64,000 nucleotides of DNA from Winogradskyella schleiferi (GTDB taxonomy: Bacteria > Bacteroidota > Bacteroidia > Flavobacteriales > Flavobacteriaceae), in contig NZ_CP053351.1 of assembly GCF_013394655.1 (NCBI RefSeq), forward strand, positions 868,001 through 932,000. The letters run 5' to 3'. Positions 11,090-42,016 of the stretch are shown piece after piece. Under the pieces are notes generated by a model. The model saw only the letters and a list, made by a program, of their open reading frames with translations, was not told where the DNA came from and searched no databases. Position 1 is the stretch's first letter, and every line of letters begins with the position of its first letter. A program made the position numbers and the translations under genes.

Positions 11090-14000
11090 ATGAAAAATAT
11101 TTTACTCTTAGTTACGCTTATATTAACAAGTTTAAGTTTCTCCCAAGATATATTAATGGAAAATGGCACCTTCACACGCTGTGCTCCCGATAAATTTTAT
11201 GATTCAGGAGGACAATTTGGTAATTATTCAGATGATGAAAATTTGGTTACCACTATATGTCCGCAAAATGCAGGTGAATTTATTATGGTCGATTTTACTC
11301 AGTTTAATGTACAACCGAACTTCGATTTTTTAACTGTTTATGACGGTGACGATATAACCGCAGATGTTATTGGAACGTATTCTGCCAATTCGCCTGGTAT
11401 GGTCTCTGCAACAGCAAGTAATACCTCAGGATGCTTAACATTTGCTTTTACCAGTAATGGGGTAATAAACATTAATGGTTGGGAAGCCAATATTATATGT
11501 GCTGTACAATGTCAAACCATTACCGCATCTATTGATGCTACAATTCCACCTGCTGTTTCTGGAACTATTGAGGTAGATCCAAGTGAATTAATTACATTTG
11601 AAGGAAGTGCTACATTTTCAGATGATGGAACTGGAGCAACTTATACTTGGGATTTTGGTAATGGTGTTACTCTTGATGGTGAGGATGTTAATTATGCTTA
11701 TACTAATCCTGGTACGTATACGGTAACTTTTACGGCTACAGATACTAATCCTGTGGGTTGTTCAGATTCTACGAGCACTTTCCAAGTTGTTGTTTTAGAT
11801 AATGACACGTGTGCAGGTGCTTTGCCTATTTGTGGTGACATTGAAGATGTGCCTTCACCTGTTGGATCTGGTGCAGCTGAGTCTGGTATTGATTATGGGT
11901 GTTTGGGTTCGCAACCTAGACCAAGATGGTATTTTTTGCAGACAGGTGATATTCCTGGCGATTTAAGTTTTACTTTGACTCAAACTAATGGTCAAGGTGG
12001 TACAGGTGGTGGTAATGATGTAGATTTTATTATCTGGGGACCTTTTTCTCAACCTGAATGCGGATCGGCAAATTTGAATTCTACAACCCAAGTAGATTGT
12101 AGTTTCTCAGCTGCGGCAACAGAACAAATAGATATACCTAATGCACCTGCCAATCAATATTATGTGCTATTGATAACTAACTATAGTCAGTCTGCTGGTT
12201 ATATTAACTTAGAATTAAATGAAGATCCTAATTCGGATGCGACTACCAACTGTGATATTATATGTCAGGTAGATTTAGGTGAAGATCAAGAACTTTGTAA
12301 TGGAGATAGTTATACTATTGAACCTGATTTCAATGGTGCCTTTAATTCATTTGAATGGCAGTTAGATGGTGAGACAATTCCAGGTGAAACAGGTTCTACC
12401 TTAACAGTTACAGAATCGGGAACATATACTTTACTTGTTGAAGGATTAGATGCTGTCTTTGGAGATCCATGTTCTACTCAAGATGATATTGAAATTGCTA
12501 TTGTTCCTCCATTCAGTTTAAATGATATTTCAGTTACTGAATGTGGTCAAACGGCAACTACAGCTGATTTTAACTTGGATGCAGAGATAGTTGATATATT
12601 AAGTCCATTAGATCCAGCTGATTATACGGTTTCTTTTCATAATAATTTAGATGATGCTGAAAATGCTGTCGCTGCCATTACAGGAACAAATCCGTATAGC
12701 GGAACTGATGGTGAAATTATTTATGTAAGAGTGGAAGCTACTGGTACAAATTGTTTTTCTACCAGTATGGTGACTTTAGCTGCATCATCTCAACCCACCA
12801 TTAATCCAGCTTCAGATTTGGAGCTATGTGATGATGTAAGCAATAACGGAACCGAGCAGTTTGATTTAGATAGTCAGACCTTAGTCGTTTTGGGAACTCA
12901 AGTAGCTGCGGATTTTAATGTTACGTATCATCTAAGTTTCGACGAAGCGGATATGGGCAATAACGCTTTGCCATTGTCATATACCAATACAATGAACCCA
13001 CAGCCGATATACGTAAGGATAGCGAGCGCGAGCGACGTAAGTTGTTATAATGCCTCGACGGATCCTGTATTCGACTTGGTGGTGAATGCAAGAGCCATTG
13101 CCAACACGCCTCCCGATATGCTGGAATGCGACACCGTTGGTAATGACGGTTTAGAGACCTTCGACCTTAGTAGCCAAGAAGCGGTTATTTTGGGCGACCA
13201 AGATCCAGGAACTTTCTCGGTAACGTTCCACAATACCATAGATGATGCAGAAAATGGTGTGGCAAATCTGCCTACAAGTTACCAGAACGTCACACCCAAC
13301 CAGGAGACAATTTATGTACGAGTAGATGACCCTGTTTATCCAGACTGTTACACTACCACAAGTTTCGATTTAGTTATCAATACCTTACCGGCACTAGTCG
13401 GTGTGCCGGCATTACAGGTCTGTGATGATGACATGGACGGTTTCGTGGGCTTTCCATTGAGCACAAGGGAAGCAGAGCTATTAAATGGCCAAACAGGTAT
13501 AGAGGTTTCTTTTCATGAAAGCTTAGTGGGTGCAGAGACAGATGATGCAGAAATATTTGATGGTTATGTTAATACATCAATGACCAACCAGACGGTATTT
13601 GTACGTTTAGAAAACACCACTACAAACTGTTACAATGTAAATACTCTTCAGTTGGAAGTTGTGGTAAACCCAATAGCAAACGTTACGACGGCATTGGAAG
13701 TCTGCGACGATAACGCAGACGGATTTGCTGAGTTCAATCTTAGTTTAAAAGACGCAGAAGTTATAGGTTCGCAAAGCGGCATGACGGTTAGTTATTATGC
13801 TGATCCAGCAGATGCCGAATTAGGGGATAACCCATTGCCAACTACATATACAAATGCGACTCCAGGAGTACAAGAGGTTTCTGTACGTATTGAAAATGGT
13901 GCCACAGGTTGTTATGCTACAACAACATTACAGCTCATCGTTAATCCAAAACCATTGATCACAACGGTAACAGCATATGAGTTATGTGACGATAATCTTT

Positions 14001-17000
14001 CAGGAGACGAAGAAGAAGACTTTGATCTCAGTACAAAAACAGCAGAGATATTAAACGGTCAAGTCAATGTAGCGGTCAATTATTATGCCAACGAAGCAGA
14101 TGCAGATGCAGGAATAAACGAGATAACAGGACCCTATACAAACATTAGCAATCCGCAGACCGTAGTAGCCATTTTAACCAATACGAATACCAATTGTATT
14201 TCAACTACTACCTTCGAATTAATTGTCAACCCTTTGCCAGCGATAACGTCACCGACGGCTTTGGAGGTCTGTGACGACGGCACGGCTGACGGTATAACCG
14301 AGATGGACCTTAGCCTAAAGAACGCAGAGGTGACGGGCAACAACCCGAACTATTCGATAAGCTATTACGAGACCCTGGCGGACCTACAGTCAGGAGCGGA
14401 CCCCTTACCGACACTTTATACCAATACGAGCAACGGCCAGGTCGTTATCGTATATGTGGAGGACATCAACACGGGCTGTTCCGCTACCACGACGCTGGAG
14501 CTGGTTGTGGAGCAGGCACCAGTGGCATTTACACCGTCACCATTGAGATATTGCGACCCAGACAACGACGGCTTTGGGATGTTCGACCTTGCGGGTACGG
14601 CGAACGAGATTACGGGAGGAGCCTCTGGGCTCACGGTAACCTACCACGAAACACAGACCAATGCGGACAATGGCGTGGACGCCATAGATACCACGGTGAG
14701 CTATAACAATATCGTACAAGATGCACAGACCCTATATGTAAGGGTAGAGAGTGCCACCATAGCAACGGACTGTGCCACTATAGTCGTGCTGGAGTTAATA
14801 GTGGAGCCAACACCACAGTTAATGGCGCCAACACCATTGGAGGCCTGTGACGATATCTCGGCCGATGGTTTTGCGGTCTTTAACCTTACGGACAAGGCAG
14901 ACGAGATACTGAACGGCCAGGACCCAACACGGTATATCCTGAGCTATTATGAAAGCGAGGCGAATGCGGCACTAGCGATGAGCCCAATCGGCAACCCGTT
15001 GGCCTATACCAATACGGACGATTTTAACCAAACGATCTGGGTGCGTGTAGAGGACAACACTACGGTAGAAGGCTGTTACAAGCTAACAAGCTTGGAGCTG
15101 ATAGTGAACGCCTTACCGGTTTTGGTAACACCGGCACCATTAGAGCTGTGTGACGCGATCACTTTGGACGATGGGCAGGAAGCCTTTACGCTCGAAGACG
15201 CCAATGCGGAAATACTAAACGGACAAACAGGAATTACGCTAACGTATTACGAGACCCAATCGGACGCGGACAATGCCACTGTTCCAATCGAAAGTCCTTA
15301 TACCAATACGGGCAACCCCCAGACTGTTTTTGTAAGGGCAGAAAACGATATCACGGGCTGTTACAATACGGTAACGCTAACACTGAGGGTCAACCCGATC
15401 CCATCACCGGAAGCAAACCCTGATCCCATAGAGGTCTGTGACGAGGACAATGACGGTTTTGCGGAGTTCGATCTGGAGATCCGAACAATAGAGGTGACCA
15501 ATGGGGAGTCCGATGTCGTGATCACCTATCACGAAACCCAGAGCGATGCAGAACAAGGGGAGAATGCGATCACGGGACTGTACACTAACATCGTGGCCAA
15601 TAACCAGATGATCTATGTGCGCTCGGAGAGCACGCTTACCGGATGCTACAACCTTACCCTTAACACGCTGGAGCTTATTGTGCACCCGGCACCGGAAGTA
15701 CCGACAAGCATAGAACCTTACACGATCTGTGATAGCGACAATGATGGTTCGGCGCAGTTCGACCTGAGCACCAAGGACGAAGAAGTGCTCAACGGACAAG
15801 AACCGACAACAGTGGAACTGACCTACCATGTAAGTGCAGCGAATGCAGAAACAGGGGTCAACCCCATCATCAATGTGGGCAACTATACCAACAACGGTAA
15901 CCCACAAACGATCTATGTACGTTTATACGACCCTATAACGACCTGTTTTGATACGGGTATGTTCGAGCTGATCGTAGCCTTGCCGCCAGAAGCGGTACAG
16001 CCCACACAATTAAACGAATGTGACGACCTAGGGGAAGTACCGGGAGATGAGATCACGGTCTTCGACCTTAGGGTAAAGGATACGGAGATCACAGGGGGCA
16101 ATGCCAGCTGGTCAGTAGCTTATTATGAGACCAGTGCAGATGCGCAGGCACAGGAAAATGCCATACCGGACCCAACACAGTACACCAATACGGAAATAAA
16201 TGGATTGGGTGCCAATCCACAAACGCTGTATGTTGTGGTCACCGATACGGATACGGGCTGTGTCGATTTTACGACCTTGACGATAAGGGTCTTACCGAAC
16301 CCAACACCAACGGCCAGCGATTTGTTGCCCAACATAGAACGCTGTGACGAAGAAAACACGGGAGATGGTACAGAGATGTTTGACCTCACGGAAAACGAAG
16401 ACCTGATCCGCAACGGTGAGAACGGAGTTACCATAACCTATCACGAGACAGAGGACGCTGCCAACGCTGGCACGGACGCAATCCCAGACCCAACACAGTA
16501 CACCAATATAGAAACACCGACGCAGGAGATCTATGTGAGGATGACCAAGGACGCCACGGGCTGTTATGCCCTTGTGGACTTTACCATCGTGGTGAACCCA
16601 TTACCGGAAGTGATAGCGGTAACGGACTTCATCCAATGCGAGCTCTTTACCGACGGCACCGACACTTTTGACCTTGGCACCAAGGACGCCGAAGTATTGA
16701 ACGGACAGGACGAGGCCCAGTTTACGGTCAGTTACCATGATAACCTAACGGATGCGGAAGAAGGGATGAACGGCCTGGTGAGCCCGTACACCAATACGGC
16801 GAACCCGCAACAGATATTCGTGGCCATCACCAACAATGAGACGGGCTGTTCCATCAGCACCCAGAGCTTCAACATCGAGGTACAGGAAGCCGCACAGGCC
16901 AATCCGGATATGGACCCGATCGTTTTCGAGCTGTGTGACGATGAAATGGAGACCGATGGCAATCCGTTGGACGACAGCACCCAATTTGATTTAACGAACA

Positions 17001-17983
17001 TGGACGCAGAGGTATTGGACGGTCAGGACCCATTGAACTACATCGTGACCTACTATGCCACCCAAGAAGACGCGGACGACAAGGTGAACCCATTGCCGAC
17101 CTTATATGAAAATGTAACAAACCCACAGGTGATCTATGCAAGGGTAGACAACGATACGCCAGATGCGGTCACGGCCGCGGACACTTCGATCTGTTATGCC
17201 CTGGCAGCGCTTACGCTGCAGGTGAACCCGTTACCGGAGTTCGACCTGGATGAGAGCTATACCCTGTGCGTAAACACGGACGGGAGCGAAGTGCTGGACC
17301 CATTGGTCATTGACACAGGCCTATCGGCAACGGACTATGGTTTTGTGTGGAGTTATGAGGGCGTGGAAATAACTGGCGAGACAGGGCCGAGCATCATGCC
17401 CACACAGGGCGGTAACTACCGTGTGGATGTTATCGATGTAAGTACCTCGACGCAGACCAGTTGCCCTAACTTCGATACGACTGTGGTGATGGAAAGCGAA
17501 CCGCCGAGCATAACGGTCAACGTGCTGACACAGAACTTTGCGGAGAGCCACGTTCTGGAAGTGGTGCCTGGGGACGAGATAGGGGACTATGAATACAGCC
17601 TGGACAATGGCCCATGGCAGGACGGGACCCTGTTCACTGACGTGTCACCCGGCCAGCACCATATCACGGCAAGGGACAGGAACGGCTGTGGGACCACGAC
17701 CGAACCGGCATTCATAATCGATTACCCGCTGTACTTTACGCCCAACGGAGACGGCCGAAATGAAACTTGGAACATAGAAAGTATTGGAAATGGTGCGAAA
17801 ATTTATATATTTGACCGCTACGGGAAGCTGTTGAAGCAGATCAGTCCGAACGGGACTGGCTGGAACGGCACCTACAATGGCAGTGCTATGCCGACCGACG
17901 GCTATTGGTTTACAGTGGAGTACGACGAGCCTTTGACAGGGGAACGTAAAGAATTTAGAGCCCATTTTACCTTGAAACGATAA
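11090..17983 (+). CDS. Giant repeat-rich surface protein with T9SS type-B sorting domain
   Basis: A 2297-residue exported protein. Order of parts: signal peptide (1-18, ending SFSQ); CUB-like domain (~20-138); PKD domain (~150-235, 'YTWDFGNGV ... YTNPGTYTVTF'); a 'NDTCAGALPICGD' domain (~240-390); an Ig-like stretch; then 16 repeats of about 95-100 residues (~475-2046), each of the form LE(V/L)CDD...G...FDL...EIL.GQ....TYYET..DA......YTN....QT(I/V)YVRVE....GCY....L.L.VNPLP. A further Ig-like segment follows. It ends with the type-B CHU_C sorting domain ('YFTPNGDGRNETWNIE' ... 'IYIFDRYGKLLKQ' ... 'PTDGYWFTVEY'). The protein should cross the outer membrane through the type IX system and stay on the surface, probably as an adhesin or gliding-related protein. 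Base composition rises sharply from about 12990 and especially after 14220, unlike the 5' third. Confidence 0.93.
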   Translation: MKNILLLVTLILTSLSFSQDILMENGTFTRCAPDKFYDSGGQFGNYSDDENLVTTICPQNAGEFIMVDFTQFNVQPNFDFLTVYDGDDITADVIGTYSANSPGMVSATASNTSGCLTFAFTSNGVININGWEANIICAVQCQTITASIDATIPPAVSGTIEVDPSELITFEGSATFSDDGTGATYTWDFGNGVTLDGEDVNYAYTNPGTYTVTFTATDTNPVGCSDSTSTFQVVVLDNDTCAGALPICGDIEDVPSPVGSGAAESGIDYGCLGSQPRPRWYFLQTGDIPGDLSFTLTQTNGQGGTGGGNDVDFIIWGPFSQPECGSANLNSTTQVDCSFSAAATEQIDIPNAPANQYYVLLITNYSQSAGYINLELNEDPNSDATTNCDIICQVDLGEDQELCNGDSYTIEPDFNGAFNSFEWQLDGETIPGETGSTLTVTESGTYTLLVEGLDAVFGDPCSTQDDIEIAIVPPFSLNDISVTECGQTATTADFNLDAEIVDILSPLDPADYTVSFHNNLDDAENAVAAITGTNPYSGTDGEIIYVRVEATGTNCFSTSMVTLAASSQPTINPASDLELCDDVSNNGTEQFDLDSQTLVVLGTQVAADFNVTYHLSFDEADMGNNALPLSYTNTMNPQPIYVRIASASDVSCYNASTDPVFDLVVNARAIANTPPDMLECDTVGNDGLETFDLSSQEAVILGDQDPGTFSVTFHNTIDDAENGVANLPTSYQNVTPNQETIYVRVDDPVYPDCYTTTSFDLVINTLPALVGVPALQVCDDDMDGFVGFPLSTREAELLNGQTGIEVSFHESLVGAETDDAEIFDGYVNTSMTNQTVFVRLENTTTNCYNVNTLQLEVVVNPIANVTTALEVCDDNADGFAEFNLSLKDAEVIGSQSGMTVSYYADPADAELGDNPLPTTYTNATPGVQEVSVRIENGATGCYATTTLQLIVNPKPLITTVTAYELCDDNLSGDEEEDFDLSTKTAEILNGQVNVAVNYYANEADADAGINEITGPYTNISNPQTVVAILTNTNTNCISTTTFELIVNPLPAITSPTALEVCDDGTADGITEMDLSLKNAEVTGNNPNYSISYYETLADLQSGADPLPTLYTNTSNGQVVIVYVEDINTGCSATTTLELVVEQAPVAFTPSPLRYCDPDNDGFGMFDLAGTANEITGGASGLTVTYHETQTNADNGVDAIDTTVSYNNIVQDAQTLYVRVESATIATDCATIVVLELIVEPTPQLMAPTPLEACDDISADGFAVFNLTDKADEILNGQDPTRYILSYYESEANAALAMSPIGNPLAYTNTDDFNQTIWVRVEDNTTVEGCYKLTSLELIVNALPVLVTPAPLELCDAITLDDGQEAFTLEDANAEILNGQTGITLTYYETQSDADNATVPIESPYTNTGNPQTVFVRAENDITGCYNTVTLTLRVNPIPSPEANPDPIEVCDEDNDGFAEFDLEIRTIEVTNGESDVVITYHETQSDAEQGENAITGLYTNIVANNQMIYVRSESTLTGCYNLTLNTLELIVHPAPEVPTSIEPYTICDSDNDGSAQFDLSTKDEEVLNGQEPTTVELTYHVSAANAETGVNPIINVGNYTNNGNPQTIYVRLYDPITTCFDTGMFELIVALPPEAVQPTQLNECDDLGEVPGDEITVFDLRVKDTEITGGNASWSVAYYETSADAQAQENAIPDPTQYTNTEINGLGANPQTLYVVVTDTDTGCVDFTTLTIRVLPNPTPTASDLLPNIERCDEENTGDGTEMFDLTENEDLIRNGENGVTITYHETEDAANAGTDAIPDPTQYTNIETPTQEIYVRMTKDATGCYALVDFTIVVNPLPEVIAVTDFIQCELFTDGTDTFDLGTKDAEVLNGQDEAQFTVSYHDNLTDAEEGMNGLVSPYTNTANPQQIFVAITNNETGCSISTQSFNIEVQEAAQANPDMDPIVFELCDDEMETDGNPLDDSTQFDLTNMDAEVLDGQDPLNYIVTYYATQEDADDKVNPLPTLYENVTNPQVIYARVDNDTPDAVTAADTSICYALAALTLQVNPLPEFDLDESYTLCVNTDGSEVLDPLVIDTGLSATDYGFVWSYEGVEITGETGPSIMPTQGGNYRVDVIDVSTSTQTSCPNFDTTVVMESEPPSITVNVLTQNFAESHVLEVVPGDEIGDYEYSLDNGPWQDGTLFTDVSPGQHHITARDRNGCGTTTEPAFIIDYPLYFTPNGDGRNETWNIESIGNGAKIYIFDRYGKLLKQISPNGTGWNGTYNGSAMPTDGYWFTVEYDEPLTGERKEFRAHFTLKR
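12512..17228 (+). repeat. Sixteen in-frame repeats of about 290-300 bp in the giant adhesin
   Basis: The repeats are recognised at protein level by the recurring CDD, FDL, NGQ, YTN, YVRVE and GCY positions. DNA similarity between units is modest in most pairs, so the array is old rather than a recent amplification. Confidence 0.85.
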
Positions 17984-31272: not shown

Positions 31273-34200
31273 CTATCTTGATTTTGAAACTTTTTTATTT
31301 CTTATAAATAACACCAATGCCAAAATTATTGTAACAATTAGCAAAGTCCATATCCACCAAAAATTTGGTGATTCTAAATTAATAGGCGCTGCATCTCCAA
31401 TTAACACCAAACCAGCCCAATATTGAGGAGAAATTGTTCTCCCTTCTGCAGTAGCTATATAATCTAATTTTGCTTTTTGTAAGGCTTCATCTTTTGGTAA
31501 CCCTTCTTTGAGGTATCCATAAAAATTTTCGATAATCGTTGCACTCGATTGTTCATCTATTTTCCATAAGCTCGTTAATATACTCTCGCTGCCAGCATAA
31601 TTAAAAGCATGTGCTAAAGAAATCATGCCTTCGCCTGGCTGGAATGTTGGTTTTCCCGTTTCACAGGCAGTTAGAATGGCTAAATTAGATGCTAAATTTT
31701 GATTGTAAATCTCGTAAGTGTAAAGTGAATTGTTATCCGTATTATCGCTGTCGTCCAGGTTCTTCGCAAATATTAATCGTGAAAACTCAGGAGAAACATT
31801 ATTAGATTCAGCATGTGTTCCAATATGAATGATTTTATGTTCTTTTGCCTGCTGTGAAAAGACTTGCTTGGAGGCCTTTTCATTTGTAAATGAATTACCA
31901 CTAAATAGCTGAGAATATTCTTTAGCTAAATCTACTGTAAAAGGCTGAGGTAATAGTTTAAGATAGGTTATATCTAATAGGATAGAGTCTTTTATGGCAA
32001 TTTTATAATTGTTTTTCATCTGCTCGGTAAACTCAGGAGTAAAAGCGACAAAATTATTTTCGAAAAATTTTGGTGTTTTGTTTTTATCAATTAATAATAG
32101 ACTATAGTTATAAGATAGGTTGTATTTACTTAACAAGCTCTTTTTATACAACTCCTTGAATGAATCAACTTTAGTCGTTGTCAATACTTCAAAACTTAAA
32201 TTAAAGAGTTCACCATCCGGAACTATAATAACACTTTTATTGGTAATTGAATTTTCAAATGGTTTCCATAAAATATTGTATAAATTGCTATAAGGTTTTA
32301 AATTATCATCTAATAAATTATCAGTATTTTCATAGGAAGCTAACTCATCTTTTAACTTATCTGTGTCCAATAAATAGGATTCAATTCTATTTTTTTCAAT
32401 TAGGAAAGCATAGAGTTTTTCCTGAATGAAAACATATCTAACGATAGACTTATTATCAGGAAAATTAGAAGTACTTAGGTTTAAAGATTGTGATATCGAG
32501 GCATATTTTAAGTTGTAGTATTTAGGATAATCACGCTTTAAGGTTTCAAGTAAAACAGACCAGTTTTTATTGGTTTCGAAAAATGTCTCCAATCCACCCT
32601 CAATGTTTAGGGTTGAATTAAATTCGTCTTTTAGTAGCTTTTCTGCTTCAAGTATTGATTTTGGAATATCATCTAAAATAAAATCAGATTGTACATTCAG
32701 TTGCTGTCTAATCTTATTATAGAGTTTTGATTCGTGAATACTTAATATTTCTTTTAAAAATTTTTTATCTTTAGTTTCTTCATAGATCACCATGGCTATT
32801 GCCTTTGCTAATTCGAAAACTTGATCATTATCAGCAAGAATAATAGAAATATTTTGATCTTCTATAGCCATAGTTTTTTGCTGTTCTAAAATAGTGATGG
32901 CCTCTTTAAGGCTTTTAAACTGATCTTTAAGAAATAAGGTGTCTTTATCCTTGGTTAGTTTTAATTCTATCTCAGACTTAAGTAATAAAGCCCTTGGTTT
33001 TTCTAAAAAATTTAGTTCATTAACTTCTGTAGCATAAGAATCGCTTAAAATCGCTAATGCTTTATTTATTTGTTTTGAGGCTTCTAGGTAATTATTGGAT
33101 TTATACTGAATTCTTGCTAGATTTACTAAAAGGGAATATTCTAAAACCGTACTCTTACCTTGATTATTAACTACGTAGTTATAAATAGTAGTTGCCATGT
33201 CAATGGCTTTATCAGTATAGCCGTTTTTTGCATAAAATCCAGAGAGTGTGGTCATAGCGCTTAAATAGAAAGCGTCATAACTATCTCCAAATACACTTTC
33301 ATAATAGCTTTTGCTTTTTTCGTAGCATTCTTTTGCCGTTTCTATATTGCCTAAGGATTCGTTTACGACGCCTTTATAGTAATAGCCATCGGCAACCCCT
33401 AAATAATCCTTTTGGTCTTGGTTGGTATAAATATCTAAGCTTTTATTGATGAACTTTTCTGCGGTTTTGAAATCTTTTAATTTTAAGTGCGAATTGGCAA
33501 CTTGCAAATAAGAATAGGCTAATTCAGGATCATCCTTAGCCAAATATTTTTTCTTTTCTTCAAGTGCATAAGTGTTTAATTCCTTTGCCTTTTGCAGGTT
33601 ACCTTGTTTACTAAAATCACCAGCATAATTTTCTATTGATATATATAAAAATTTACGCGCTTCTTCTTTGAAAAAGTCCTTGCCTTCGGTATTTGATTTA
33701 AGAAAGTCAAGGTAATTTTTTATGGCTTTCTCGTTGTACTTTAAAGATTCCATTGTGTTACCTAGTGTAGCATGTACCGATGCAATATTAGCTTGATTAG
33801 AGGCTGTATGATAATGCTTGTTCATTGGATTTGGATCTAAATCAGAAATGATCTCTTCTCCCTTTTGAAAATAATACAAGGCACTATCTATTTTGTAAGC
33901 ATCCCACATTCTGCCGCCTAAAGAATTGTAAGCATCTAGAATTTTAGTTTTGTCAGATTTGGGATAAGACAAGTAATGTTTTAAGGACATACGGCTATGC
34001 TTCGTGGATGCTTTAATATTGCCAAGTCGTCTATAATCTACACCTAGATTATGATGAATAATACCAAATAAATCACCAGTCGCATCAGGCATTCTCTTTG
34101 TGATTTCTAATGCCATTAAATTTTGTTCTGAAGAATTTTTGTAATCATGGAGGTATACATAAAACCGTGAGAGTACCAAGTGCTTTTGCCTCGCAACAGA

Positions 34201-34521
34201 CAAAGAATCAGTTAAATCAGTAATGCTATTTGCAAAATCATTTGCTTTCGTTATGGCTATTGCTTCGCCTTCTAGCTTTGCAGTAATTTTTCCGACATAG
34301 TAAATACGTTTAGTTAACTCTAGATAGGCTTTTTCCTGTTTTAGTTCATTGATATGATCAATTAATATGAAGTCCGCTTTTTTGAATTCTTTGTTTGAAA
34401 TTAATGAATCAATACGCTTAGTATTTGATAACGAATGTGTCTGCGCAATTAAACTGAAAGAGACACTCATGATGCACACAATCATTATTACAAATTTATT
34501 ACAACGGGATAATGCCTTCAT
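31273..34521 (-). CDS. TPR-CHAT peptidase-like protein A, membrane-anchored
   Basis: A 1082-residue protein: signal peptide or N-terminal helix (about 9-27, ending LIAQ), TPR repeats over about 100-480, a linker of helices, and a C-terminal CHAT domain (about 780-1045). CHAT is a caspase-like cysteine peptidase fold; the catalytic pair is intact, His903 in 'IHIGTHAESN' and Cys953 in 'ILTACETGKP'. 'GEGMISLAHAFNYAGSESILTSLWKIDE' is also typical. One hydrophobic helix (about 1054-1073) then a basic tail (RNKKVSKSR) anchor it with TPR and CHAT on the periplasmic side. It overlaps the preceding paralogue by ATGA and is the last gene of the sigma-factor operon. Confidence 0.9.
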   Translation of the reverse strand: MKALSRCNKFVIMIVCIMSVSFSLIAQTHSLSNTKRIDSLISNKEFKKADFILIDHINELKQEKAYLELTKRIYYVGKITAKLEGEAIAITKANDFANSITDLTDSLSVARQKHLVLSRFYVYLHDYKNSSEQNLMALEITKRMPDATGDLFGIIHHNLGVDYRRLGNIKASTKHSRMSLKHYLSYPKSDKTKILDAYNSLGGRMWDAYKIDSALYYFQKGEEIISDLDPNPMNKHYHTASNQANIASVHATLGNTMESLKYNEKAIKNYLDFLKSNTEGKDFFKEEARKFLYISIENYAGDFSKQGNLQKAKELNTYALEEKKKYLAKDDPELAYSYLQVANSHLKLKDFKTAEKFINKSLDIYTNQDQKDYLGVADGYYYKGVVNESLGNIETAKECYEKSKSYYESVFGDSYDAFYLSAMTTLSGFYAKNGYTDKAIDMATTIYNYVVNNQGKSTVLEYSLLVNLARIQYKSNNYLEASKQINKALAILSDSYATEVNELNFLEKPRALLLKSEIELKLTKDKDTLFLKDQFKSLKEAITILEQQKTMAIEDQNISIILADNDQVFELAKAIAMVIYEETKDKKFLKEILSIHESKLYNKIRQQLNVQSDFILDDIPKSILEAEKLLKDEFNSTLNIEGGLETFFETNKNWSVLLETLKRDYPKYYNLKYASISQSLNLSTSNFPDNKSIVRYVFIQEKLYAFLIEKNRIESYLLDTDKLKDELASYENTDNLLDDNLKPYSNLYNILWKPFENSITNKSVIIVPDGELFNLSFEVLTTTKVDSFKELYKKSLLSKYNLSYNYSLLLIDKNKTPKFFENNFVAFTPEFTEQMKNNYKIAIKDSILLDITYLKLLPQPFTVDLAKEYSQLFSGNSFTNEKASKQVFSQQAKEHKIIHIGTHAESNNVSPEFSRLIFAKNLDDSDNTDNNSLYTYEIYNQNLASNLAILTACETGKPTFQPGEGMISLAHAFNYAGSESILTSLWKIDEQSSATIIENFYGYLKEGLPKDEALQKAKLDYIATAEGRTISPQYWAGLVLIGDAAPINLESPNFWWIWTLLIVTIILALVLFIRNKKVSKSR

Positions 34522-37500
34522 TTTTTAAATTTTCTTAATATTACTATTATAATAATTATACCAATAATTCCCAATAACCAAAACACTAAATTTGATGATG
34601 TTGTTAAATTTATAGGAGCTGTATCTCCAATTAAAACCAAGCCTGCCCAATATTGTGGCGAAACCGTTCGTCCTTCTGCAGTAGCTATGTAATCTAATTT
34701 TGCTTTTTTTAAGGCTTCGTCTTTAGGTAACCCCTTTTTAAGGTACCGATAAAAATTTTCAATGATGGCAACACTAGACTGCTCGTCTATTTTCCACAGA
34801 CTTGTTAAAATACTTTCGCTACCAGCATAATTAAAGGCATGCGCTAATGAAATCATACCTTCACCAGGTTGAAAGGTCGGTTTGCCCGTTTCGCAAGCCG
34901 TTAAAATAGCGAGATTGGAAGACAGATTTTGGTTATAAATTTCGTAGGTGTAAAGTGAGTTGTCTTCCGAATAAATCGTGTCATTAACATTTTTTGCAAA
35001 TATAAGTCGTGATAATTCGGGTGATATATTATTTGATTCTGCGTGCGTACCAATATGAATAATTTTATGTTCCTTGGCCTGTTCTGTAAATATTTGTTTT
35101 GAAGCGTTTTCGTTTAGAAAGGATTTGCCATTAAATAATTTAGTGTATTGCTTGGCAAGAGCTGTTGCAAAGGGTTGCGGAAGTAGTGTTAAATAAGTTT
35201 TATCAAGTGAAATAGAATCTGTAATTGTCAATTGATAATCGGTTTTCATCTTAGAATTAAACTCAGGCGCAAAAGCAATAAAATTATCGGTATAATCTAT
35301 CACTATGCTGCTTTGGTTTATTAAAAATAAACTGTAATTATATGATATGGTGTACGTATTTAATAAACTATGGTCAACGAGCTCTTGATAGGAATTAACC
35401 AAAGATTTAGTTAGCATTTCAAAATTTAGATTAAATAATACCTGATCAGGCACTATGGTTACTTTATTGGTTTTAATAGAACCTGCTATAGGTTGCCAAA
35501 GCGTAAGGTATAAATCATTTAAGGTTTCAAAATTTAATTCTTTGAATGGATTGTTACTTTGAAGGCTATTAATTTTTTTAGTCAGGTTTTTTGTTTCTAA
35601 ATTAAAAACTTCTAAATCTCGATTATGAATAACAAATACATAGAGTTTACCGTCTATAAATGTATATCTAACAAGCGTTTTGTTTTCAAGATTTTTATTT
35701 TCTATTTGTTCATGTATTGATTTAGATATTGCAGCATATTTTAAATCATGATACATTGGATAGTCTTTTTTTAATAGTACTAAAAATTCTTCCCATTCTC
35801 TATTGGCTTGAAAAAAAGATTCTAAAGCGTCATCTTTTAGGATTGAAGAACTTAGAGCTTGTTTAATGCGCTTTTCGTCTTCAATGATAGTTTTTGGAAT
35901 ATTATCAAATGTTAAGAATGTTTTTGAGTTTAATCTATTTCTGATGCGATTGTATAACATAGACTCATGCATACCTAAAACAACCTTTAAATACGATTTT
36001 GATTGTGTTATTTCGTAAAGTTCGAGGGCTATTTTTTTTGTAAATTCAAAAATATCGATATGGTCTGATATTAACATAGAAATAGTGTTGTCATCAGTAA
36101 TTTTGGATTTTTGTTCTTCTATAATAGTAATTGCGTCTTGTAGTTCTTTCAATTGTGTTTTTAAGAAAATACTGTCTTTGGTCTTTTTCAATTGATATTC
36201 AGATACAACCTTAATTATGGTTGCTCTTGGTTTCTGCACTTCAATCTTTAATTTTCCTAATTTTGTGTTCTTTGTAAATGTTTCGTCATTAAGAAGGTTT
36301 AAGGCTAATTTACTTTTTTCTAAAGCTGCTGTATAATCTTTAAGTATATAATAAATACCAGCAAGATTTACAACTTGATGATATTCTAGCAAGGTCTTTT
36401 CACCTTGATTTGCTACAATATAATCGTGTGCTTTGTTAGCCATTTTCAGTGCTTTTTCAGAATAACCGTTTTCTGCATAGAAACCTGAAGCGGTATCCAC
36501 AAAGTCTAAATAAAGTTCGTCATAATATTCGCCTAATGAAGATTTGTAATATTCTTCAGCTTTTTCATAACAATCAAAAGCACTTTCTATGTCTTTAATT
36601 TCCTCAAGGACTCTAGCCTTATAATAATACGCATCTGCTAGCCAATTGAAATAATTACTTGGGTTTTCATTCAACTCTAAAATTCCCTCGTTAAGATATT
36701 TCTCCGCCTCATCATATTCTTTCAAAGCCAGGTTTATTTGACCCAAAAGGATTTTTCCTTTTGAAATTTCTGGGCTTTCTGGACTTAAATGCCTTCTTTT
36801 TTGATGGAATGAATATTCAATCAATTCTTTTGCTTTTCTATAATCTCGAATGTCTTTATAGATACCTCCATAATTATCAATAGCTTGAAACAAAAATTCT
36901 TGGGCATAATCTCTTCGTGCTTCAGTAATGTCTGATTTTAAAAATAAATTAAGGTTTGTTATGGTTTTTTGCATGGCATTTATGGATGCGTTTACATCTC
37001 CCTGAATATTGTGGATGCCAGCCATATTATTATTTAAAATCGCAGGTCTTAAGTATTTATTGTCAGGGTTTTGCTCTAAACTGCTTAAGATGTGCTCTGC
37101 CTTTTTGTAATAGACTAGAGCACTATCTATTTTAGATACATACCACATCATTCCACCAAGTGCATTGTTGGTAATATATAATCGTTGCTTATTTGTATCA
37201 GAATAAGAATTGAAAAATTCCAATGCTTTTTTATGGTACTTTAACGCCGTAGTTTGGTTGCCCATTCTCATATTGAACGTACCGAGATTACTATAAATAA
37301 TACCAAAAAGCTCTCCATTTTTATCTGGCATTTTTTTAGTGAATTCTATGGCCTCAAGATTATAGTCGCTAGCTGTTTTATCGTCTCCTAAGAACTCATA
37401 AAACGAACCAATTTCTAATTTTAATTGCCTTAATGTTTTTGGGTCAGTAGTGCTTGAGCTAATTCGCTTACCAAAGTCGAGAACTGCTTTTTCTGCTGTG

Positions 37501-37766
37501 TAACTGTTTTTTAGTTCAAAGTTAAGTTTGCCTATAAAATAAATGTAGTCTGTTGCTTCATAGTAAGATTCTTGAGTTATTAATCTATCTAAATAAAAAT
37601 TCAGTTTTTGTTGGGCAATATCAAGTTTTTTTTCAGAAATTAATTTATCAAGTACTTTCAATCCTGAGATAGAATCTTGCTGAGCAAAACTCATTTGAAA
37701 TAAGCTTAATACTAAAATATAAAACATAGGATGCCTAGAACAATTATAAAATCGTCTCATAATCAA
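34518..37766 (-). CDS. TPR-CHAT peptidase-like protein B, membrane-anchored
   Basis: Tandem paralogue of the next gene and also 1082 residues, with the same order: N-terminal signal (about 12-29, ending SFAQ), TPR units ('ALKYHKKALEFFNSYSD', 'ALVYYKKAEHILSSLE' and others), long helical linker, CHAT domain with His908 ('IHIGTHAESN') and Cys958 ('ILTACETGKP'), and a C-terminal helix with a basic end (LRKFKK). CHAT parts of the two proteins are nearly identical while the TPR halves are clearly diverged. The gene starts 24 bases after the TPR/anti-sigma-like gene. Expected role: periplasmic peptidase or protease-like switch; substrate unknown. Confidence 0.9.
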   Translation of the reverse strand: MIMRRFYNCSRHPMFYILVLSLFQMSFAQQDSISGLKVLDKLISEKKLDIAQQKLNFYLDRLITQESYYEATDYIYFIGKLNFELKNSYTAEKAVLDFGKRISSSTTDPKTLRQLKLEIGSFYEFLGDDKTASDYNLEAIEFTKKMPDKNGELFGIIYSNLGTFNMRMGNQTTALKYHKKALEFFNSYSDTNKQRLYITNNALGGMMWYVSKIDSALVYYKKAEHILSSLEQNPDNKYLRPAILNNNMAGIHNIQGDVNASINAMQKTITNLNLFLKSDITEARRDYAQEFLFQAIDNYGGIYKDIRDYRKAKELIEYSFHQKRRHLSPESPEISKGKILLGQINLALKEYDEAEKYLNEGILELNENPSNYFNWLADAYYYKARVLEEIKDIESAFDCYEKAEEYYKSSLGEYYDELYLDFVDTASGFYAENGYSEKALKMANKAHDYIVANQGEKTLLEYHQVVNLAGIYYILKDYTAALEKSKLALNLLNDETFTKNTKLGKLKIEVQKPRATIIKVVSEYQLKKTKDSIFLKTQLKELQDAITIIEEQKSKITDDNTISMLISDHIDIFEFTKKIALELYEITQSKSYLKVVLGMHESMLYNRIRNRLNSKTFLTFDNIPKTIIEDEKRIKQALSSSILKDDALESFFQANREWEEFLVLLKKDYPMYHDLKYAAISKSIHEQIENKNLENKTLVRYTFIDGKLYVFVIHNRDLEVFNLETKNLTKKINSLQSNNPFKELNFETLNDLYLTLWQPIAGSIKTNKVTIVPDQVLFNLNFEMLTKSLVNSYQELVDHSLLNTYTISYNYSLFLINQSSIVIDYTDNFIAFAPEFNSKMKTDYQLTITDSISLDKTYLTLLPQPFATALAKQYTKLFNGKSFLNENASKQIFTEQAKEHKIIHIGTHAESNNISPELSRLIFAKNVNDTIYSEDNSLYTYEIYNQNLSSNLAILTACETGKPTFQPGEGMISLAHAFNYAGSESILTSLWKIDEQSSVAIIENFYRYLKKGLPKDEALKKAKLDYIATAEGRTVSPQYWAGLVLIGDTAPINLTTSSNLVFWLLGIIGIIIIIVILRKFKK

Positions 37767-37790
37767 TAGATTATTAAAATAGGTTCGTTG

Positions 37791-38528
37791 TTAATCGTTT
37801 AGCTCAGACAAAAGGGCTTTACTGTTTTCTACATTGGATTTTTGTAAACTAGCCTTCGCTTTTTCTACATTATCTGCTTTCAAATAGGCCAATCCTAAAT
37901 AATAATGAGCATCATTAATAAGTGCAAATTCAGAATTTTGCGCTACACCTTCCAAAAGAGGAATTGCGATTTCTTCATTTTTATTCGCCAAATAAGCAAC
38001 TCCGATAAAGTAATTTAGAGTATCGTTATTTGGTTTTGCCTTTTGCAAAGTTTCCCATTTGGCTATTGCTGTTTTATAATCACCTTGTTTATAATTTACC
38101 ATAGCTTCATAAAAATCATAGTTGTCAGAACTACCCATTGTTGTTGGTAAGCCAGGATCTGGTGTAAAGTAATTGGCATAGAGTCGTTCGTTAGAATTGC
38201 CTCCTAAAAACCAAAAACTACCTGCGGTAATAATAAGTGCAGCAGCTACTAAAAGTCGTTTCCAATTTAGAGTATGCACTTTGGTATCTTCTTTTTCGGG
38301 TGGATTTGAAACGTTATCAATATCCTCATGAAAAATATCTAACTGTTCTTTTAAGGCTTGGGTTTCAATACCAGTTAAGACCGTTTTAATATCTTCAACT
38401 TTAGATTTAAATTCGGCTTCTGTTTGCAAGCGTTGCTCAAATTGTTTTAAATCTAAAGGATCTAGATTTCCATTGAGATACTTCTCAATATACTCTAGTT
38501 CTTCTTGTGTTATGTGTTGTAAATCCAT
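37791..38528 (-). CDS. One-TM TPR protein in the anti-sigma position
   Basis: A 245-residue protein with a cytoplasmic N-terminal helix region (1-88: 'ITQEELEYIEKYLNGNLDPLDLKQFEQRLQTEAEF', of the type seen at the start of Bacteroidota anti-sigma-like proteins), one membrane helix (about 91-109) and a periplasmic part with about three TPR-like units ('YKTAIAKWETLQKAKPNNDTLNYFIGVAYL', 'AHYYLGLAYLKADNVEKAKASL'). No zinc-binding HxxxCxxC motif is present. It begins 9 bases after the sigma-factor gene. Being next to the sigma factor and bridging the membrane, it is the obvious candidate anti-sigma factor, but that is inference. Confidence 0.75.
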   Translation of the reverse strand: MDLQHITQEELEYIEKYLNGNLDPLDLKQFEQRLQTEAEFKSKVEDIKTVLTGIETQALKEQLDIFHEDIDNVSNPPEKEDTKVHTLNWKRLLVAAALIITAGSFWFLGGNSNERLYANYFTPDPGLPTTMGSSDNYDFYEAMVNYKQGDYKTAIAKWETLQKAKPNNDTLNYFIGVAYLANKNEEIAIPLLEGVAQNSEFALINDAHYYLGLAYLKADNVEKAKASLQKSNVENSKALLSELND

Positions 38529-38537
38529 TGCTAATAA

Positions 38538-39116
38538 TCAATTTTTCAGGGCTAAACTTTTTAGTTTTTGCATACATCTGTATTTTTTATTTCGGGTCGA
38601 AGCCGAGTCTAATGCCAATTCTTCAGCAATTAATTTCATCGACTTTTTTTCAAAATAGAACATACGTAATAAGCTTTTACATGCTTGGCCTAAATTCTTA
38701 AAGGCTAGCATTACATCTTCTAATCGTTTATCTTTTAAAATGTCATCATCAATATCATTATTTTCTTCGTCTTTTATTTCAAAATGTCCTAATTGTGAAG
38801 CCACAATTGTCTTTTTATAGCCGCTGGATCTTAAGACATCCAACCATTTATTCTTTGCAATTGTATAAAGGTAGCCGTTGATTGAAGATTCACTTTTTGG
38901 AATAAATTTGTCTTGTTTAATATTTTGCCAAACGGCTAAAAATGCATCTTGGTAAATGTCCTTGGCTTGATCTTTTGAGCCACTATTTCTTAATACTAAA
39001 ATTTCTATTTTAGGATAGTTGTTAACGTACAGGTTTTTTAAAACTTGTGGATCATTATTTTTAACAGCTTCGATAAAGCTATCGTTTAAAGAAAGGGTTG
39101 GATTTTTCTCTTGCAT
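38538..39116 (-). CDS. ECF-type RNA polymerase sigma factor
   Basis: A 192-residue sigma-70 family protein of the extracytoplasmic-function type. Region 2 is about 25-95 ('AKDIYQDAFLAVWQNI', 'INGYLYTIAKNKWLDVLR'). Region 4 is about 125-185, with the HTH-like 'FEKKSMKLIAEELALDSASTRNKKYRCMQKLKSLA'. It heads an operon with the TPR/one-TM protein and two CHAT proteins. Upstream on the minus strand TTG and TATCTTTC are spaced about 20 bases, a near-match to the housekeeping promoter. Confidence 0.93.
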   Translation of the reverse strand: MQEKNPTLSLNDSFIEAVKNNDPQVLKNLYVNNYPKIEILVLRNSGSKDQAKDIYQDAFLAVWQNIKQDKFIPKSESSINGYLYTIAKNKWLDVLRSSGYKKTIVASQLGHFEIKDEENNDIDDDILKDKRLEDVMLAFKNLGQACKSLLRMFYFEKKSMKLIAEELALDSASTRNKKYRCMQKLKSLALKN

Positions 39117-39318
39117 ATAACAATGAAAGATATGTGAAAGGATTGAACTTTACAACCTATTTAGTTTAAATACGTTTTTTTAAAGATAAAAGTCATAGTC
39201 CAATGCTATTTTTTCGGTTTTCAAATATTGAATAATGTTCTTTCGAAAAAAAAGATATGGAAATTTACTGAAACGGATAGAGTAGAATAAGATAAAAAAT
39301 ATAAAATGACAGGTTTGT

Positions 39319-40057: not shown

Positions 40058-42016
40058 ATGAAAAAAATTACGTTTATAGTATTGCTATTAATTTCGGGAT
40101 TGGGTTGGTCACAGGTTTTAGTGATTAATGAATTGGATGCCGATAATCCTAGTACAGATACTGAAGAATTTATAGAGTTGAAATCCCAAACCCCTAATTT
40201 TTCTACTGATGGTTATATATTAGTGTTTTTTAATGGCTCGAGTAGTGGTAATGATTCTAGTTATTTTGTATATGATTTAAATGGCTATTCAACGGATAAT
40301 AATGGATTGTTGGTAGTGGGAAGTTCTAATGTGTCGCCATTCCCTCAAGCTTTAATGTCCGAGAATGTAATACAAAATGGAGCAGATGCTGTTGGTATTT
40401 ACCAAGCGTCGGTAATTGATTTCCCTGAAGAGACTGTTGCTACGCAAACCAATCTAATCGATGCAATGGTTTATGGCACAAACGATGCTGACGATACTGA
40501 TTTATTGGCGTTACTTGGTCAAAGTGTTCAGCATAATGATAATGGCACCAATGCTAATCCTAAATCAATTCAACGTTTTGTTGACGAATTTGATGTCGTG
40601 ACGTTTTCTGCTGCGACGCCAACTCCAAGAAGGGAAAATGATGGTTCTGGAATTCCAATAAATCCCATTGCCATTTCTGTTGCCGAGACCCAATATGGAG
40701 AAGGGGATGTTTTTGATATAACCTTTACGACAGAAACAAATATGACTTCAGATCTAAACTTTAATATCAGTTTAACTAATTTCGGATTTAACAATTCAGA
40801 TTTTACGGGAAATACTAGCTTAACCATACCTGCTGGTCAAAATTCTACCAGCACGACGATTACCTTAATAGATGATTCATTGGATGAAGGTGATGAAGTT
40901 GCGCAAATTCATTTTTTGGATTTGGTAGAGCCAATTGTGGCGTCGAACAATTTTGTTGAGGTTAGAATAGTGGACAATGATTTTACGGTTGCCCCTTTTG
41001 GTACACCACTTAACCCAACAACAGGAATTGTACAAAGTACACAGCCAACAGGTTATTACGATAGTGCAGATGGATTATCAGGTATAGCACTAAGACAAGC
41101 ATTACAAGATATTATTGCAGACCCAACAACGGTTAGGGCACAGACTTATGCTGATATTATTGCTATTTTGAATGAAGCCGATCAAAATCCTGCCAACAGT
41201 AACCAGGTTTGGTTAGTGTATTCTGAAGAAGGACGTGCAAAATTAGATATACAGACGGGATCAGATAATACCGATAAATGGAATAGGGAACATACGTTTC
41301 CAAGATCCAGAGGTGGCTTTTTCGATATTGAAGAAGATGAAATAGCAGATGGTATTAATATATTTTGGACGACCAAAGCAGATTCGCTACGTCATGGAAA
41401 TTCGGACGCACATGCGCTGAGAGCGGCTGATGCTGCGGAGAACAGCACACGTAACAATCAGCATTATGGAGAGTACAATGGTCCATCCGGAAATGCAGGT
41501 AGTTTTAAAGGAGACGTGGCCCGAAGTGTGTTGTATATGGAAATTCGATATAATGGATTGGAAGTGGTCAATGGATTTCCGGATATAACAGGGCAATTAG
41601 GTGATTTGGCTACCTTATTGGATTGGCATAGAAACGATCCTCCAGATGATTTTGAAATGAACAGAAATAATGTGGTCTGTAACTGGCAAAAAAATAGAAA
41701 TCCATTTATAGATCAACCGCTTATGGTTGAATATATTTGGGGAAATAATGTTGGAGATACTTGGAATCAATCTTTAAGTATTGATGGAAATGATTTATCG
41801 AATATTTCGATATATCCCAACCCTACTTATAACAGAGTTTTTATTTCAGGGTTAAAGCCGAGTACTGAAGTTGAATTATATTCTGTTGAAGGCAAACTTT
41901 TAAAGCGCTTTGCTAATGTTGAAAATTATATAGATTTAGAAGTGGCATCAGGATTATATCTATTGCAAATACGAACTGGTGAACAAATTGCTGTTAAAAA
42001 AATAATAGTGAATTAA
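40058..42016 (+). CDS. Secreted endonuclease I-family nuclease with T9SS type-A sorting domain
   Basis: A 652-residue multi-domain exported nuclease. Order: signal peptide (1-18, ending GWSQ); lamin-tail domain (about 20-190: 'VLVINELDADNPSTDTEEFIEL'); Calx-beta-like domain (about 205-310: 'GEGDVFDITFTTE ... DDSLDEGDEVAQI'); endonuclease I domain (about 330-570) with 'WNREHTFPRSRG' and 'SDAHALRAADAAENSTRNN' supplying the His-metal residues and 'GDVARSVLYMEIRY'; and a C-terminal type-A sorting domain ('ISIYPNPTYNRVFI ... VEGKLLKRF'). It should be exported across the outer membrane and degrade extracellular DNA or RNA for nutrients. Confidence 0.92.
   Translation: MKKITFIVLLLISGLGWSQVLVINELDADNPSTDTEEFIELKSQTPNFSTDGYILVFFNGSSSGNDSSYFVYDLNGYSTDNNGLLVVGSSNVSPFPQALMSENVIQNGADAVGIYQASVIDFPEETVATQTNLIDAMVYGTNDADDTDLLALLGQSVQHNDNGTNANPKSIQRFVDEFDVVTFSAATPTPRRENDGSGIPINPIAISVAETQYGEGDVFDITFTTETNMTSDLNFNISLTNFGFNNSDFTGNTSLTIPAGQNSTSTTITLIDDSLDEGDEVAQIHFLDLVEPIVASNNFVEVRIVDNDFTVAPFGTPLNPTTGIVQSTQPTGYYDSADGLSGIALRQALQDIIADPTTVRAQTYADIIAILNEADQNPANSNQVWLVYSEEGRAKLDIQTGSDNTDKWNREHTFPRSRGGFFDIEEDEIADGINIFWTTKADSLRHGNSDAHALRAADAAENSTRNNQHYGEYNGPSGNAGSFKGDVARSVLYMEIRYNGLEVVNGFPDITGQLGDLATLLDWHRNDPPDDFEMNRNNVVCNWQKNRNPFIDQPLMVEYIWGNNVGDTWNQSLSIDGNDLSNISIYPNPTYNRVFISGLKPSTEVELYSVEGKLLKRFANVENYIDLEVASGLYLLQIRTGEQIAVKKIIVN

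Follow-up and report, generated by a model that had tools for sequence, protein, structure and literature searches.

Described systems and a row of four genes in Winogradskyella

Two described systems combine a TPR-CHAT protein with a sigma factor in a manner that resembles the row of four genes analysed here, which lies within a 64,000-nucleotide stretch of Winogradskyella schleiferi DNA (NZ_CP053351.1, positions 868,001 to 932,000; hereafter the window). DdvS/DdvA of Myxococcus xanthus consists of an extracytoplasmic function (ECF) sigma factor and a transmembrane (TM) anti-sigma factor with a TPR-CHAT region (PDB 8rot, 8rw5), and in type III-E CRISPR the TPR-CHAT protein Csx29 also stands by an inhibitor-like protein (Csx30) and a sigma factor (CASP-sigma). 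According to one published account (PubMed Central PMC10028731), Csx29 cuts its target, the cut in Csx30 falls in a flexible loop between residues 427 and 429 and is abolished by loss of M427, and RseA is cut by a first protease and then by RseP and ClpXP. The row in the window encodes an ECF-type sigma factor, a one-TM TPR protein and two CHAT proteins (CHAT-A and CHAT-B):

38538-39116, minus strand: ECF-type sigma factor gene (192 aa; open reading frame and domain models)
37791-38528, minus strand: TPR protein with one TM segment, occupying the anti-sigma slot (245 aa)
34518-37760, minus strand: CHAT-A, with signal peptide, TPR array, CHAT domain and C-terminal TM segment (1080 aa; PF12770, 138.8 bits)
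31273-34521, minus strand: CHAT-B, built like CHAT-A (1082 aa; PF12770)

The row resembles DdvA in that a TPR-CHAT fold adjoins an ECF sigma factor, a likeness that extends over fold, sequence and gene order. In DdvA, however, the anti-sigma and TPR-CHAT parts form one chain, whereas here they are separate proteins, each with its own TM segment and sometimes with two CHAT proteins, and the TPR protein, unlike DdvA, carries a small TPR domain of its own as well as a conserved loop. The anti-sigma domain of DdvA is reportedly zinc-binding and of the CHCC type, whereas residues 1-75 of the window TPR protein contain no Cys; the DdvA study is also said to have found an incomplete active site. Csx29 is switched by RNA-bound Cas7-11, whereas the CHAT proteins here are predicted to be exported and membrane-anchored, and the inhibitor-like protein, set against that of type III-E, has one TM segment. 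This one-TM layout is that of RseA-type anti-sigma factors; compared with RseA/DegS/RseP and RsiW, the site-1 protease here would be a caspase-like CHAT protein rather than DegS, and the sensor would be its TPR array. Separase likewise carries a CHAT-like catalytic half behind a helical array, but it is eukaryotic and its substrate is cohesin, which it cuts after Arg. The parts and the logic of the row are already known, as a single chain in DdvA and in an RNA-triggered system in Craspase. Among the open-licence PubMed Central papers listed, none described the flavobacterial row, a split form anchored in the membrane, its spread over Bacteroidia, or the loop with its two classes. The initial annotation knew of no described system with this exact layout; the same parts are known in DdvA.

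We lean slightly towards reading the row as a membrane switch, in which a CHAT protein would cut the TPR protein, the predicted holder of sigma, in its loop and a second cut would free the sigma factor. The overall interpretation of the initial annotation, a CHAT-operated release of sigma, is partly supported. Its four minus-strand open reading frames were all in place, and their coordinates bore out the 9 bp gap between the sigma and TPR genes and the 4 bp ATGA overlap between CHAT-A and CHAT-B. The length of 1082 residues given for both CHAT proteins holds for CHAT-B, whereas CHAT-A has 1080 residues from the ATG at 37760, which leaves 30 bp after the TPR gene; the 24 bp and 1082 residues reported before assume a TTG start. 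The ECF assignment agrees with a score of 65.5 bits against TIGR02937 (sigma70-ECF; cut-off 42.9) and with Sigma70_r2 over its Pfam cut-off (4e-10); the score against TIGR02985 (78.5 bits) lay under that model's cut-off of 126.4, and PHROGs matches were of sigma or regulator types only. PADLOC, run on the four row proteins only, reported no defence system and a single weak TPR match.

Conservation of the row

The row is carried by dozens of flavobacterial genomes. Contig loci were found with the CHAT alignment alone, and the best 80 of 231 relatives represented 78 distinct loci, of which 65 had sigma, one-TM TPR and CHAT genes in order on one strand; in three of these (L052, L071 and L077) the row lies beside the matching CHAT gene, which stands alone. 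Two of the remaining loci ended at contig ends and 11 were without the row (10 Aequorivita records and L068). Median gaps were 4 bp between sigma and TPR genes and 7 bp between TPR and CHAT genes, and the named relatives were mostly Winogradskyella and Psychroserpens. We also scanned 397 whole genomes of the family for the TPR protein (E up to 1e-40) and CHAT (E up to 1e-100), and found the TPR protein in 51 and CHAT in 48: both in 45, TPR only in 6, CHAT only in 3 and neither in 343 (Fisher p 5e-49, kinship ignored). Among the CHAT-only genomes, two (G408 and G486) held a fragment only and two (G140 and G486) were at most 80% complete. Judged by coordinates, CHAT and TPR genes are neighbours in 43 of these 45 genomes (including a broken CHAT in G044), and in the other two, which belong to one genus (G027 and G508), CHAT lies elsewhere. 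A comparison of neighbourhoods, proposed as a check on the initial annotation, thus showed that the order is not a one-off.

The TPR protein and its juxtamembrane loop

TM segments and signal peptides throughout were called by hydropathy alone, with thresholds set along the way. The TPR protein was divided as follows:

38304-38528, minus strand: helical domain at the N-terminus (residues 1-75), predicted to be cytoplasmic and anti-sigma-like (model helices 8-18, 24-36 and 38-71)
38328-38333, minus strand: F66-H67
38199-38255, minus strand: TM segment, residues 92-110 by hydropathy (model helix 89-109)
38136-38168, minus strand: juxtamembrane loop FTPDPGLPTTM, residues 121-131, candidate CHAT recognition or cleavage site
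37794-38129, minus strand: TPR domain, residues 134-245, predicted periplasmic (Pfam TPR families, AF2 model and fold search)

The AF2 model (pLDDT 87.2) had neither helix nor strand at residues 121-133. A single central TM segment was present in 82 of 83 relatives, oriented N-in by charge in 69 of the 82 with ties in 11. The anti-sigma model NF052375 matched 45 of 74 members (best 6.8e-8) and a second anti-sigma model matched 32 of 74, with the window protein under the cut-off of both. A profile of residues 1-84 retrieved no anti-sigma chain among structures by sequence, and a fold search with the whole protein was taken up by TPR structures, so that it covers the TPR part. All 90 loci that have a sigma gene keep His67, and none of the three that lack one does (F66 was present in 76 of 83 linked loci); we read the His67 region as kept for the sigma factor, because His67 is lost only where the sigma gene is lost. 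Residues 1-75 are predicted, from sequence and model, to form an anti-sigma-like domain. The proposal that the TPR protein is the anti-sigma factor is consistent with its single TM segment, its gene slot and the co-variation of His67 with sigma; the window protein itself scores under the anti-sigma model cut-offs.

Loci that lost the CHAT gene

Seven loci (L086, L087, L088, L089, L105, L123 and L124) have a TPR gene without an intact adjoining CHAT gene, and three of them (L088, L089 and L123) also lack the sigma gene. In L124 (6556-8470) an intact TPR gene stands with a sigma frame split in two and a CHAT remnant of 113 aa; the congener L125 is intact. A tree from which the loop was left out placed the seven in four groups, and supported branches forced at least three label changes, which we read as CHAT losses. 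Columns kept at 85% or more were chosen on the 83 linked loci themselves in our first count, so that the linked values arise partly by construction, and these columns were kept in 94% of linked cases against 33/63 CHAT-less cases in the loop, 95% against 161/182 in the TPR domain and 91% against 56/70 in the N-terminal domain. In a repeat of the count, 62 linked loci from outside the clade supplied the columns, which were then scored on 21 linked loci inside it and on the seven CHAT-less loci; this gave 145/147 linked against 25/49 CHAT-less for the loop, 529/567 against 159/189 for TPR columns and 142/147 against 38/49 for the N-terminal domain. Loop columns were kept at 9/9 in two loci with CHAT elsewhere in the genome and at 8/9 in one locus with an adjoining CHAT pseudogene. 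Because loop constraint drops where CHAT has been lost, we read the loop (PDPGLPTxM) as kept for CHAT. The earlier proposal of a periplasmic CHAT target in the TPR protein thus survives in that part of this protein has CHAT-linked constraint, but the part in question is the loop at 121-131 instead of the TPR repeats. We also noted a fresh loss in L093 (6951-10163), where a CHAT gene with six stops stands beside intact sigma and TPR genes.

CHAT proteins

Both CHAT proteins matched PF12770 (3e-39 and 3e-40; 135.4 and 138.8 bits, cut-off 24), and the His/Cys pair described as intact in the initial annotation was found in each, as was a signal-peptide-like N-terminus:

35043-35045, minus strand: CHAT-A His906, catalytic candidate
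34893-34895, minus strand: CHAT-A Cys956, catalytic candidate
34536-34592, minus strand: CHAT-A C-terminal hydrophobic segment with tail RKFKK (hydropathy)
31813-31815, minus strand: CHAT-B His903
31663-31665, minus strand: CHAT-B Cys953
31303-31359, minus strand: CHAT-B TM segment

The pair was invariant in 120 of 120 distinct long CHAT frames. CHAT-A and CHAT-B each end in a hydrophobic segment followed by a positive tail, features found in 99 of 100 CHATs and 99 of 99, respectively; an N-terminal hydrophobic stretch was found in 107 of 113 with a short window and in 53 of 100 with a strict 19-residue window. The CHAT proteins are accordingly predicted to be membrane-anchored and to face the periplasm. 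The AF2 model of CHAT-A (pLDDT 85.5) matched the folds of Craspase Csx29, separase and Myxococcus DdvA (PDB 8rot/8rw5); DdvA was also matched by the CHAT sequence profile, whereas separase was matched by fold only.

CHAT-A and CHAT-B are 38% identical in the TPR array and 84% identical over residues 861-1046, and at seven two-CHAT loci (four tandem in the row) the corresponding values were 24-36% and 73-82%. Fourfold sites agreed between CHAT-A and CHAT-B at 13/54 positions in the catalytic part and 14/53 in the TPR part, which ruled out gene conversion as the source of their catalytic likeness; such low agreement suggests that selection, not recent exchange, preserves it. The divergence pattern fits different sensors acting on one target. 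In other tandem pairs fourfold agreement was 0.37-0.45 in the catalytic part and 0.28-0.38 in the TPR part, and there may have been partial exchange.

Convergent layout and two loop classes

The genome of the window contains four CHAT matches. Two are CHAT-A and CHAT-B, the third belongs to a second sigma/TPR locus, and the fourth lies in a frame of 1803 aa with another build (G000:C1:2930469-2931299; L004 481-3801). On one strand, the second locus (L005 6349-13974; G000:C1:257000-274000) has genes for a sigma factor and for a one-TM TPR protein of 238 aa, and its CHAT gene is convergent with them. Between the TPR and CHAT genes, on the sigma-TPR strand, lie two short lipoprotein-like genes and the gene for a protein that ends in a type IX sorting tail; this last protein may be part of the locus's output. 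Eight more loci, picked for the pattern, have CHAT convergent with sigma-TPR, with 3′ ends that overlap in six and lie 19-25 bp apart in two. The convergent layout recurs across Bacteroidia.

Of 87 collinear loci, 86 carry GLxxM in the loop (L102 is the sole exception), and all 12 convergent loci have an Arg there with Gly, Ser, Asn or Asp directly after it, by patterns set after viewing the sequences. Among 15 loci without CHAT in range, three have GLxxM (two with CHAT elsewhere), four have the Arg form and eight have neither by pattern; these eight are six of the CHAT-less loci (all but L086) together with L113 and L117, whose Arg the pattern missed. We also looked for an acidic residue suited to a CHAT that cuts after Arg. 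Position 868 of CHAT-A (window 35157-35159) is a candidate specificity site: all 11 convergent CHATs have Glu there, and the 86 collinear ones have mostly Leu and almost never an acidic residue. Outside the family, the 20 best TPR matches in class Bacteroidia comprised 15 with CHAT within approximately 1.5 kb and five without. For ten of these matches the surrounding sequence was read, and the other ten were judged by coordinates, with at most three candidates per genome scored for CHAT; the five had no CHAT in the 14-15 kb read.

Expression of the row

A promoter-like site lies 5′ of the sigma gene:

39125-39155, minus strand: promoter-like site, consisting of TTG, 20 bases and TATCTTTC

Of 83 linked loci, 36 have the form TTG-N17-23-TAnnTTT 5′ of the sigma gene, where shuffled sequences gave 7.2 on average, and 20 have the strict form TTTG-N17-22-TAnnTTT[GC], where shuffling gave 1.0; 63 of 83 are without the strict form. 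This motif looks like the promoter consensus of the Bacteroidota primary sigma factor. Autoregulation by the ECF sigma factor was considered and set aside, since the common upstream motif resembles this presumed primary-sigma promoter instead. A primary-sigma-like motif would mean that the row is made before any signal, as fits a sensor, and expression ahead of any signal is likely.

Proposed mechanism and alternatives

Under the membrane-switch reading, the sigma factor would be held by the predicted anti-sigma-like residues 1-75 of the TPR protein until a signal acts on the TPR array of CHAT, the putative sensor. CHAT would then cut the PDPGLPTTM loop just outside the membrane, RseP would probably make the second cut, and cytoplasmic proteases would finish the process and free sigma. 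Two CHAT proteins with diverged TPR arrays and a like catalytic part could pass two signals to one inhibitor. A cut after M131 is our guess, because Csx30 cutting needs M427 in a flexible loop. The genome has an RseP candidate (G000:C1:4174790-4176112) with 52% identity to a protein that exceeds the RseP cut-off of TIGR00054. In two loci of one genus with CHAT elsewhere (L090 6625-8796 and L126 4983-7148), the gene immediately upstream of sigma encodes RseP, and in L019 an RseP gene lies 1.5 kb beyond its CHAT. RseP beside sigma/TPR was rejected as a general feature, being confined to L090 and L126 and so a lineage trait.

Several observations weaken the reading of the loop as kept for CHAT and of the His67 region as kept for sigma. 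With all sites counted, the loop of CHAT-less loci varies about as much as the remainder of the protein; L124 shows no excess loop change relative to L125, whose own loop scores 7/9; the TPR and N-terminal domains also relax in CHAT-less loci, though less; and the CHAT-less numbers are small and their columns not independent. Five of the seven CHAT-less genomes match a broad CHAT model, four (G036, G049, G121 and G393) with long, more distant CHAT frames elsewhere and G600 with remains and a TPR-type match; G132 and G429 gave no match to it at E up to 1e-20. As for the paired CHAT proteins, the likeness of their catalytic parts is mostly general constraint, since relatives whose TPR identity is similar reach 72-78% there too.

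The same loop and linkage data would be expected if CHAT, acting as a sensor or clamp, docked on the loop and controlled the TPR protein by a change of shape without cutting; the incomplete active site reported for DdvA also speaks for this. We consider docking unlikely: the His/Cys pair, invariant in 120 of 120 frames, would be needless for it, and Csx29 does cut (PMC10028731). Slightly less probable again is that CHAT is the output of the row, with the sigma/TPR pair sensing and setting the level of a CHAT protein that acts on other periplasmic proteins. The collinear layout, with CHAT after sigma and TPR on the same strand, suits this arrangement, but a convergent CHAT gene is off the sigma transcript and yet still adjoins sigma/TPR, part of the loci have a primary-sigma-like promoter (by the presumed consensus), and the drop in loop constraint where CHAT was lost would be left unexplained. 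That the TPR protein is a membrane tether or activator needed by sigma rather than an anti-sigma factor seems very improbable given its gene slot, its three-helix domain before one TM segment and the precedent of DdvA, even though its anti-sigma family matches are weak, with the window protein under the curated cut-off, and residues 1-84 yield no anti-sigma structure by sequence. Loss of His67 only where sigma is lost also speaks against a tether, though it fits any sigma-binding role.

A broader extension of the cleavage reading is tentative, and we regard it as possible but rather doubtful: Bacteroidia would use periplasmic CHAT proteins as site-1 proteases of two classes, cutting GLPTxM after Met in collinear loci and Arg-Gly/Ser after Arg in convergent ones, with tandem CHATs as an OR gate on one inhibitor and DdvA as a fused cousin. 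If the membrane switch is real, it would divide between two genes what Myxococcus has in a single protein, and would reveal, outside CRISPR, a bacterial family of switches that link envelope to gene through caspase-like proteases. The question of what inactivates DdvA would also become testable, since the split arrangement allows the protease and the inhibitor to be mutated independently. The analysis names a short loop with two motif classes as the likely point of action, and the CHAT-less loci may serve as natural knock-outs in which loop constraint is lost.

Other features of the window

An endonuclease I with a type IX sorting tail is encoded at 40058-42016, divergent from the sigma gene, with no link to the row shown. 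A 2297-aa open frame lies at 11090-17983 of the window.

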